64,000 bases of DNA from Halarcobacter sp. (GTDB taxonomy: Bacteria > Campylobacterota > Campylobacteria > Campylobacterales > Arcobacteraceae), in NCBI RefSeq assembly GCF_963676935.1, contig NZ_OY781470.1, positions 1,770,680 to 1,834,679 on the forward strand, written 5' to 3'. Numbering within the stretch: the stretch's first letter is position 1; the number at the start of each line of letters is the position of its first letter. The position numbers and the translations under genes are program-made. The notes under the pieces are model-generated. The model had not been told where the DNA came from. It was given only the letters and a program-made list of their open reading frames with translations, and made no database searches. Below, piece after piece: positions 10,287-12,300 of this stretch.

Positions 10287-11594
10287 TTAGATTTTTCTTT
10301 CTTTTATAAATTCAATAACTTTTTTTGCACTTACTTTTGAACCATATAAAGAGCTATCAAGTGTTATATGATAGTTAGTAGCATCTCTCCAATCCTTTTT
10401 TGCAAAATGCATACAATAATTTGCTCTTTTTTCATCAGAGTCTTTTAAATCATTATCCCCAAAAGGTGATTTTACTTTATAGATTTTATTTATTTTATCT
10501 TTTCTGTATTCATTATTAGCATGGATAAAAACATTTATGCAATTTGGATGATCTTTTAAAATAAAATTAGCACAACGTCCTACAATAACACAAGACTCTT
10601 TTTCACAAATATCTCTTATAATCTTACTTTGAATTAAAAAAAGTACATCTTTAGGTGGTAACTCATCATTTACATAATTAAAGTTCTGTTCATATAAATC
10701 ATATAATAAAGAGTTTGTAAGTTTTTGTTCATTTTCTTGAATATATTCATGGGTATAACCTGTTTTCTGTGAAGTTAAATCAATTAACTCTTTATCATAA
10801 AAAGCAACCCCTAGCTCTTTTGCTATATATTTACCTATTTCATGTCCACCACTACCATATTCTCTTGAGATAGTAATCACAAAAGTATTATTATATTTAT
10901 CACTAATATCTTCAACATCTGATTCTTTTGTAACTTCATCAGCAAGCCAATTTTCAATAAAAGGTAGATTTGTACTAAAATATTTTATCATTGCTCCAAT
11001 AGATAAAGCAGCAATAATACTACCTTCTCTAATTCCAACTAAATGATTTAAAAAAACAAAAGAACTGATAACTCCTAAGATCACCATCAAAGTATCCATA
11101 GATATTTTTACTTTTCCAAACTCTTTTTTAAAGGTTTTAGATATAACTACTACTAAGCCTTCCAAAGGAAGATATGTAAGTCTTGATTTAACTACAAGTA
11201 AAATACCAAATGCTAAGGCAGCACAAGAGATTAAACATAAGATTAACTGTTCTATATAGTTTGAAGGTATTAAACTCTCTACTAAAAACATTGTACCATC
11301 AATACAATATCCAAATACTATAATTGCAGGAAGTTGTACCAATTGAAAAGGATTATATTTTTTACGAAGTATTGCTATTTGAATCCCCATAAATAAAACA
11401 TTTAATAGTATTGTAAACTCTCCAATAGTTAAGGGAAAATATACACTATAAATATATGGTACACATGATATTGGCGACACTCCTATATCTGCTTTAACGG
11501 AAAATGAAACTCCAAATGACATAATAATAAGTCCCACAACAAATACAAAAAGCCTTTTAATTAAATTTATATTAATAATATTTTCTTTTTTCAT
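10287..11594 (-). CDS. YczE/YitT-like membrane domain fused to a cytidylate-kinase-like domain
   Basis: A 435-residue two-domain protein. Residues about 12-215 form five to six membrane helices of the YczE (DUF6198) type, including SFGVSFSVKADIGVSPISCVPY. Residues about 237-435 form a cytosolic cytidylate-kinase-like domain with a P-loop variant SREYGSGG (243-250), FYDKELI and IVGRCANFIL. Family knowledge: cytidylate-kinase-like (PF13189-type) domains phosphorylate unknown substrates. The gene is divergent from a TetR regulator, and a 17-bp palindrome lies 20 bases upstream of its start codon, so repression by that regulator is likely. Confidence 0.85.
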   Translation of the reverse strand: MKKENIININLIKRLFVFVVGLIIMSFGVSFSVKADIGVSPISCVPYIYSVYFPLTIGEFTILLNVLFMGIQIAILRKKYNPFQLVQLPAIIVFGYCIDGTMFLVESLIPSNYIEQLILCLISCAALAFGILLVVKSRLTYLPLEGLVVVISKTFKKEFGKVKISMDTLMVILGVISSFVFLNHLVGIREGSIIAALSIGAMIKYFSTNLPFIENWLADEVTKESDVEDISDKYNNTFVITISREYGSGGHEIGKYIAKELGVAFYDKELIDLTSQKTGYTHEYIQENEQKLTNSLLYDLYEQNFNYVNDELPPKDVLFLIQSKIIRDICEKESCVIVGRCANFILKDHPNCINVFIHANNEYRKDKINKIYKVKSPFGDNDLKDSDEKRANYCMHFAKKDWRDATNYHITLDSSLYGSKVSAKKVIEFIKERKI

Positions 11595-11613
11595 CTTTCT
11601 CTTTTGTTAAAAT

Positions 11614-11630
11614 AACTGTACAGTACGGTT
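11614..11630. promoter_or_regulatory. Palindromic TetR-type operator
   Basis: AACTGTACAGTACGGTT is an odd-length inverted repeat matching AAC-n-GTAC-n-GTAC-n-GTT, with only the two arm positions and the centre unpaired. It lies between the divergent fusion gene (start 11594) and tetR (start 11692), where a repressor would block the fusion gene and possibly itself. Binding by the neighbouring TetR protein is inferred from position and symmetry. Confidence 0.65.
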
Positions 11631-11691
11631 TAGTTAAAGGGATATTATCCATTTAAATGTTAATATTACTTTAATAAATAGGAATAGTTTA

Positions 11692-12300
11692 ATGAGAAAG
11701 AAAACAGAAGAAAAAAAAGAAGAGATAATAAAAGCTGCTAAAGAGGTTTTTAAAGAGTTTGGTTTTGAAAAAGCCTCAATGTCTAAAATAAGTTCAAAGC
11801 TTGGCGGATCTAAAGCAACACTGTATAACTACTTTTCCTCAAAAGAGGAACTTTTTTTTGAAGTTATTTCTATTGCAAATGCCCAAGAAAGTGATTTTGT
11901 ACATCAAATTATAGATACTAAAAATGAAACCCTCGATATTCATACCCAACTATACAAATTTGGGAAAAGGTTTCTAAATTTTGTATATTCTCAAAAAATG
12001 GTTGAAATAAGAAGACTTACCATAAGTCAATCAGAGATAACAAACCTAGGTAGAATTACATATAAAAACCGAGTATTAAAAAGTCGAGAAATACTTTCTA
12101 AATATTTAGAAAAAGCAATAAAATTTAATAAAATAAAAAAAACAGATACAAATATAGCAGCAATACATTTTTTTGGACTTTTAGAATCGGAGTTGATGTA
12201 TCCATTTCTTTTTCAAGTTGATACAAATTTTTCAAAAAAACATATGGATGAGATGGCTGTAAGGGCAATTGATATTTTTATATTAGCATATGGCGTCTAA
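11692..12300 (+). CDS. TetR/AcrR-family transcriptional regulator
   Basis: A 202-residue protein with an N-terminal TetR helix-turn-helix: AAKEVFKEFGFEKASMSKISSKLGGSKATLYNYF is the diagnostic stretch (about residues 15-48), followed by SSKEELFFEVI. The C-terminal all-helical ligand domain resembles the AcrR-type C-terminal domain family (YPFLFQVD, MAVRAIDIFILAYG). It would be a homodimeric repressor released by a small molecule. It is divergent from the membrane/kinase fusion gene, with a palindrome between them. The ligand is unknown. Confidence 0.9.
   Translation: MRKKTEEKKEEIIKAAKEVFKEFGFEKASMSKISSKLGGSKATLYNYFSSKEELFFEVISIANAQESDFVHQIIDTKNETLDIHTQLYKFGKRFLNFVYSQKMVEIRRLTISQSEITNLGRITYKNRVLKSREILSKYLEKAIKFNKIKKTDTNIAAIHFFGLLESELMYPFLFQVDTNFSKKHMDEMAVRAIDIFILAYGV

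Follow-up and report, generated by a model that had tools for sequence, protein, structure and literature searches.

A gene for a membrane protein with a kinase-like domain attached stands back to back with a gene for a TetR-family regulator in a Halarcobacter sp. genome of the family Arcobacteraceae (G000; contig NZ_OY781470.1). We analysed this pair within a window of 64,000 nucleotides, that is, the whole stretch of DNA under study (contig positions 1,770,680 to 1,834,679). The first gene encodes a fusion of two protein families, DUF6198 and Cytidylate_kin2, and the gap between the genes holds a putative TetR operator and a conserved dyad (Table 1). An initial annotation had described a YczE-like membrane domain joined to a cytidylate-kinase-like domain, controlled by the divergent regulator through a 17-bp palindrome, and had proposed that a membrane protein with its own kinase couples uptake or export to the phosphorylation of a small molecule. 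Throughout, open reading frames (ORFs) are longest-ORF calls and not annotated genes.

Table 1. Features of the locus (positions in the window).
Feature	Position	Strand	Details and basis
DUF6198-Cytidylate_kin2 fusion protein	10287..11594	-	435 amino acids; 64-row alignment
Membrane domain, residues 1-217, two homologous halves	10944..11594	-	AlphaFold2 model and hhalign
Cytidylate_kin2 domain, residues 239-415	10350..10880	-	Pfam; Foldseek to 3hdt, 3fdi
Atypical P-loop REYGSGGHEIG, residues 244-254, without Walker A lysine	10833..10865	-	Alignments
Putative TetR operator, 17-bp palindrome AACTGTACAGTACGGTT	11614..11630		7/8 pairs; conservation
Conserved imperfect dyad TTAAAGGGATATTA...TAATATTACTTTAA	11634..11674		Alignment of tetR gaps
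TetR-family regulator, AefR-like C-terminal domain, 202 amino acids	11692..12300	+	Pfam

Both parts of the fusion score above their Pfam gathering cut-offs, DUF6198 (PF19700; residues 16-205) with 58.5 bits against 27 and Cytidylate_kin2 (PF13189) with 168.6 bits against 28, which confirms the joined architecture first described. The DUF6198 part is a divergent member of its family, a typical standalone protein (L221) reaching 310 bits. Within the wider group of YczE, YitT and DUF6198 proteins (COG2364, PF02588, PF19700), the fusion matches YitT_membrane (PF02588) only weakly, at 17 bits against a Pfam cut-off of 24.3, and the NCBIfam YczE equivalog (NF052291) at 40.1 bits against 205. Since both scores are below cut-off, ‘YczE-like’ describes a resemblance and not membership. 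The cytosolic parts differ as well: YitT has a C-terminal DUF2179 and YczE has none (passages of PMC4944035), whereas the cytosolic domain of the fusion is Cytidylate_kin2. A known parallel to the gene arrangement is the pairing of MocR regulators (YczR) with divergent yczE genes, for which transport linked to amino acids has been suggested. It shares with our locus a YczE-type gene and a divergent regulator responsive to small molecules, and it differs in that the regulator is a MocR instead of a TetR protein and that the passages concerned mention no kinase-like domain (PMC4944035). Two standalone DUF6198 genes were seen in the Anaerostipes genome G462, at L221:18654-19337 (minus strand) and L229:3198-3860 (plus strand), one of them being the 310-bit protein.

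The divergent regulator matches TetR_N (57.6 bits) and the AefR-like TetR_C_7 (74.9 bits), both over the Pfam cut-off. This TetR recurs in four other genomes among the 104 of the family (G058, G030, G032 and G033), 61-78% identical to that of the window; a further match, in G082, is only 31% identical. Taken alone, the palindrome in front of the fusion was rejected as evidence, because, when the 97-bp gap was shuffled 2000 times with its dinucleotides preserved, 347 shuffles contained a 17-mer as good. In addition, the gap includes a neighbouring palindrome of 23 bp with a single mismatch. The site becomes credible because it is conserved across five tetR loci. Aligning the five gaps, two between tetR and the fusion (G000, G058) and three between tetR and efflux genes (G030, G032, G033), leaves 12 of the 17 columns of the site and 32 of the 44 columns adjoining it invariant, versus 5/19 and 5/17 in the two leaders. 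Moreover, a search of eight genomes for the core CTGTACNGTAYNGT found it at the tetR gap wherever this TetR is encoded (5/5) and at none of the three genomes lacking it, with one extra match inside secD of G000. The dyad probably represents the back-to-back -10 regions of two divergent promoters, which would place the putative operator between the promoter and the start codon of the fusion. With the predicted site and the neighbouring dyad conserved at all five tetR loci, the regulation of the fusion by TetR through this palindrome, as initially proposed, is well supported. A genome-wide regulon was considered and rejected: a strict pattern occurs at one place in the 104 genomes, and the looser core, searched in the eight, finds the tetR loci and the secD site only.

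What this TetR faces in other genomes is informative about the switch. In G030, G032 and G033 it stands opposite three genes of the other strand, which encode a NodT-type outer-membrane protein, an EmrA-type adaptor and an EmrB-type permease of the major facilitator superfamily (MFS). For G030, the NCBIfam models for NodT and for the DHA2/EmrB subfamily score over cut-off, and the EmrA/EmrK model reaches 352 bits, slightly below its cut-off of 390.8. In G030, emrB is followed immediately by the fusion gene, which has the same orientation and lies 163 bp downstream. These EmrAB-NodT sets share an orthologous TetR, the putative operator and the promoter dyad with our locus, whereas in the window, as in G058, no pump gene intervenes and the fusion occupies the target position directly behind the putative operator. 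Among 11 genomes, a close EmrB (at least 90% identical) is found only in G030, G032 and G033; relatives at 42-43% are present in G054 and G082, and the best in G000 is 25% identical. Judged from these loci, the switch used by the fusion is of the multidrug-efflux type, and by analogy this suggests a role of the fusion in moving or sensing some harmful small molecule, as opposed to the mere phosphorylation of a nutrient. A parallel arrangement was seen in G082 (L026:5935-7734), where the 31% identical TetR faces an adaptor that looks EmrA-like by eye, with the 43% identical EmrB relative further on.

The full-length fusion is present in eight of the 104 family genomes, and a ninth, G080, has the membrane domain only (25% identical). 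In the fusion tree, G000 groups with G058 (98) and G030 with G078 (97), and the fusions of G090 and G017, genomes without this TetR, are nearer to the pair containing the window (94). The TetR tree, effectively unrooted because its outgroup is very distant, sets G000 and G058 apart from G030 with (G032, G033). From these trees, the fusion probably joined this TetR switch twice, the alternative being one early gain followed by several losses. We read the probable double arrival as a sign of a functional tie.

Beyond the family, a search of genome contigs with alignment A1, from which the best 80 of at least 427 confirmed relatives were kept, gave, together with loci from the other genomes analysed here, 68 ORFs with both domains. 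Although biased towards relatives of the query, this sample spans at least seven phyla (Campylobacterota, Bacteroidota, Thermodesulfobacteriota, Verrucomicrobiota, Kiritimatiellota, Spirochaetota and Bacillota). Leaving out two duplicates (L062, L024) gives 66 loci for neighbour counts, and leaving out a split frame (L068) and a truncated copy (L126) gives the 64 rows of alignment A2. The gene immediately upstream (one locus has no upstream ORF in the DNA at hand) encodes a MarR protein at seven loci (one divergent, six co-directional), a divergent LysR at three and a divergent TetR at two, the MarR and LysR assignments being confirmed by Pfam. Regulators of these three families usually respond to small molecules. 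One clade comprises all three LysR loci and another L107, L110 and L115 of the MarR set, so the independent events are fewer than the loci. A conserved operon around the fusion was rejected, neighbours being unrelated in most of the 66 loci. A search of plasmids matched 33 records, none of them with a single place covering more than 80% of the query.

Some of these fusions deserve separate mention. A second and distant type of fusion (27% identity with that of the window), beside a divergent MarR gene, is found at L067:5866-7770. In its kinase-like part it clusters with standalone domains from the same bacterial family (99), a hint of an independent fusion event. This grouping speaks against a single joining of DUF6198 to the domain, which we rejected as an assumption, yet an approximately unbiased (AU) test does not reject one clade (p 0.24; the tree tested counted two MFS-fused domains as ‘alone’). 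In G444 (L068:5928-7219) the fusion is spread over two overlapping frames, of 86 and 354 amino acids, and looks broken or mis-sequenced, and the copy at L110 has one in-frame TAG within the kinase-like domain (G469:C23:58919-59452). At L107:4696-7281 (Ca. Anaerotignum), a marR-fusion pair is accompanied by a divergent, standalone Cytidylate_kin2 gene.

The AlphaFold2 model of the membrane domain (65 aligned sequences) has a mean predicted local distance difference test score (pLDDT) of 91.8 and a predicted template modelling score of 0.87. Its helices span residues 9-35, 41-52, 57-79, 82-104, 113-137, 143-155, 159-182 and 190-209, so that each half consists of a long helix, a short half-helix and two more long helices. 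A profile of the first half aligns with one of the second at an hhalign E value of 4.1e-8 over 63 columns. The model is consistent with six transmembrane (TM) helices and two half-helices, the halves being inverted and both termini inside, a topology that we read by eye from charged loops. Against solved structures, VIA-align gave a top row of Z 6.5 over 68 residues, with every row below Z 7. For YitT, the passages available describe a family AlphaFold2 model as somewhat aquaporin/GlpF-like, with TCDB placing the protein in the Novobiocin Exporter family (PMC8761152), listed as TC 2.A.115 (in the relevant part of PMC7593918); elsewhere YitT is described, in the part concerned, as not ABC-protein-like in appearance (PMC9408558). 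In the open-access literature we found no export test on any DUF6198 protein.

The kinase-like domain keeps much of a kinase and lacks its defining residue. Its sequence relatives with solved structures are 3hdt and 3fdi, PDB entries named putative kinase/uncharacterized protein. Foldseek places these two closest, then CMP (cytidine monophosphate) and shikimate kinases, with gluconate kinases above E 0.001 (the full-length fusion model has a mean pLDDT of 87.5). With the register set by the glycine motif, hhalign pairs PSGAGKGT of E. coli Cmk with EYGSGGHE, a weak match (E 0.02, probability 2.4). The position of the Walker A lysine is glycine in all 64 DUF6198 fusions. We compared them with 46 other Cytidylate_kin2 domains, namely 44 standalone ones (at least 150 amino acids and fewer than three TM helices, predicted here and below by a simple hydropathy rule) and two fused to an MFS domain (L139, L155), and found glycine in 45 and alanine in one. 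That is, the lysine is absent in 110/110 domains, which makes a kinase function doubtful. Other conserved residues of the fusions include R244 (63/64), D267 (64/64), G339 (64/64) and R340 (63/64), and the LID D..R and GR motif of Cmk-type P-loop nucleoside monophosphate (NMP) kinases is mostly present. In Cmk these residues are catalytic. The domain may be either a nucleotide binder without classical phosphotransfer or a kinase with an arginine-based P-loop. Standalone Cytidylate_kin2 proteins (including 3hdt and 3fdi) share the fold and the lysine-less P-loop with the fusion domain, and differ in having no membrane domain and in their varying operon partners.

These partners include transporters of several kinds. 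In a Paraprevotella metagenome-assembled genome (MAG), an ORF of 602 amino acids joins MFS_1 (160.8 bits) to Cytidylate_kin2 (169.4 bits; L139:5080-6888, plus strand). In a Prevotella MAG (L155:4786-6636, plus strand), an MFS_1 ORF continues into Cytidylate_kin2 but ends after its first 64 positions, more of the domain being encoded in a short ORF just downstream. Both resemble our fusion in placing a transporter-type membrane domain before the same cytosolic domain, and differ in that a 12-TM-type MFS domain replaces DUF6198. All the best NCBIfam models for this MFS part scored under cut-off.

For the standalone domains, we compared neighbours with those of 187 control genes from 20 stretches, picked by hand at a distance from known domains in six of these genomes (standalone DUF6198 genes occur in two of the stretches). 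An adjacent co-directional neighbour with at least four predicted TM helices was found for 20/44 standalone domains versus 31/187 controls (p 9e-5), and one with at least six for 12/44 versus 18/187 (p 0.0035). Without Campylobacterota genes the counts were 15/35 (p 0.001) and 10/35 (p 0.005), respectively. All six variants of the test gave p below 0.05, the values being uncorrected for the number of tests or for relatedness. A first control (10/133) was discarded because it had been drawn from other genomes and overstated the effect.

Partners typed by Pfam comprise MatE (two tested), AcrB-type RND, LrgA/LrgB, CitMHS, CitMHS_2 and AA_permease, and those read by eye comprise LivM-LivG-LivF runs (L200, L206), MATE (L142, L145, L147, L205) and LrgAB (L216). 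For example, a tight LrgA-LrgB-Cytidylate_kin2 run is found at 5/5 loci (L073-L077) of one Campylobacterota family (f3), and in the E. eligens annotation a MATE gene adjoins a gene for the domain. The order RND permease, hypothetical protein and kinase-like protein at L161 also appears, with neighbouring locus tags, in the excerpt concerned of a Fusobacterium nucleatum table (PMC9848294). In the open-access literature seen, the name ‘cytidylate kinase-like family protein’ occurs in table entries only, and the same literature (subscription papers being outside its scope) yielded no functional study of the fusion, Cytidylate_kin2 or DUF6198. One genome (G462; locus L115, Anaerostipes, Bacillota) encodes nine Cytidylate_kin2 domains above 100 bits. 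With paralogues tied or fused to so many transporter types, a regulator fits better than a one-substrate enzyme. It is possible, if somewhat short of an even chance, that Cytidylate_kin2 serves generally as a nucleotide-sensing regulator attached to transporters, with a P-loop that lacks the lysine. Such a domain would act from fusions with DUF6198 (perhaps made more than once) and with MFS transporters, or from a gene of its own next to those for MATE, RND, LrgAB, CitMHS and amino-acid transporters.

For the locus as a whole, the explanation we favour, and to which we give about an even chance, is a transporter-like protein whose expression is induced through the TetR switch; it would probably be an exporter, and its cytosolic domain would bind a nucleotide in a regulatory role. 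The fusion would be self-contained as a membrane protein, and a single repressor gene would control it: TetR bound to the 17-bp operator would block its transcription, and, as is usual in TetR biology, a small molecule would release the repressor. This inducer is most likely toxic or xenobiotic because the same TetR and operator face EmrAB-NodT genes in relatives. The fusion would have been recruited to this switch: one relative carries it after the pump genes, and in the window and the nearest relative it immediately follows the operator. Built as a two-fold repeat that includes half-helices, the membrane domain may move or gate the molecule, more likely outward. Cytidylate_kin2 would bind a nucleotide and most likely regulate the membrane part instead of acting as a classical kinase. 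The direction, substrate, DNA binding, nucleotide binding, catalysis and regulatory role of the system are what we infer here from sequence and models. Of the initially proposed membrane protein with its own kinase, the transport half stays plausible, given the two-half domain, the efflux genes under an orthologous switch and the MFS fusion. Phosphorylation of a small molecule by the fusion is not supported in the form proposed, the P-loop lysine being gone in fusions and other domains alike with other NMP-kinase residues present.

Several observations weigh against this explanation. The TetR link is local (2/66 fusion loci), the upstream neighbour is not TetR, MarR or LysR in 54/66, and neighbours mostly look unrelated. 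A search for a sigma-70 consensus promoter matched none. Foldseek found no PDB match for the membrane model at E≤0.001, so a solved fold was rejected for it, which is no proof of a new fold. The MFS fusion is seldom seen: of 201 genomes around G466, 144 gave matches, and among the matches listed, which cover either the MFS part or the kinase-like part, none spans all 602 amino acids. The transporter association weakens when neighbours within three genes are counted (at least six TM helices, 16/44 versus 40/187 controls, p 0.03). Finally, R390 (64/64) and D or N at position 387 (62/64; D 46, N 16) are kept in the fusions, which fits a working active site.

This last point leads to the strongest rival, a vectorial kinase, in which the membrane domain would import a small molecule, such as a nucleoside or organic alcohol, to be trapped through phosphorylation by the cytosolic domain, with the near-invariant arginine of (S/G/A)R(E/Q)xGSGG replacing the lysine. 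Arginines 244, 340 and 390 are kept not only in the fusions, along with residue 387, but also in 45, 42 and 44 of the 46 other domains. The CMP, shikimate and more distant gluconate kinases among the structural neighbours, and uptake-type families such as CitMHS and AA_permease among the partners, agree with this. Yet the Walker A lysine is missing throughout, the orthologous switch faces efflux genes, and the transporter partners are too diverse for a one-substrate kinase; we regard a vectorial kinase as unlikely. A still less probable account denies any functional tie: TetR would control only itself and pump genes now absent, the fusion having come to lie behind the operator by rearrangement. 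This TetR is indeed not adjacent in six of the eight family genomes with the full fusion (in G030, one of these, it is four genes away, at the efflux locus). Against a mere rearrangement, two genomes with TetR proteins at 78% identity have both retained the operator-dyad region, the fusion tree points to an association that probably arose twice, and MarR and LysR recur as fusion neighbours.

The idea that the domain substitutes for the CMP kinase in a phylum lacking a classical Cmk starts from an apparent gap. No PF02224 match was found in G000 (37/37 candidates scored), and across 397 Campylobacterota genomes partial matches occur only in 60 and exceed the cut-off in five, the best being 28.2 bits over 71/211 positions (at most seven candidates scored per genome). 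A full fusion in so few family genomes and PF13189 above 100 bits in only 20/397 genomes form a distribution too sparse for an essential phylum-wide role, and the lysine is again absent. We rejected this possibility on distribution and consider it hardly credible.

If Cytidylate_kin2 is indeed such a general regulatory domain, a large family annotated as a kinase would really be a transport regulator. Cytidylate_kin2 proteins are routinely called kinases although the defining lysine is missing. In at least seven phyla the domain shares a polypeptide with DUF6198, both families being widespread and without an assigned function. Any compound found to release this TetR should give a lead to the substrate of the fusion, and the MFS fusion together with the LrgAB, MATE and RND pairings provide parallel systems in which to study the role of the domain in transport.

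Minor observations concern gene surroundings and domain length. A gene for an HrpB-type helicase lies 49 bp downstream of the fusion in the window and is separated from it in G058. Among Cytidylate_kin2 proteins of unusual length, an ORF of 337 amino acids beside CitMHS_2 (L214:3064-4074, plus strand, to the contig end) carries an N-terminal extension of about 130 amino acids without a Pfam match, and another, of 288 amino acids (L213:3487-4353, plus strand), is likewise longer than the domain.

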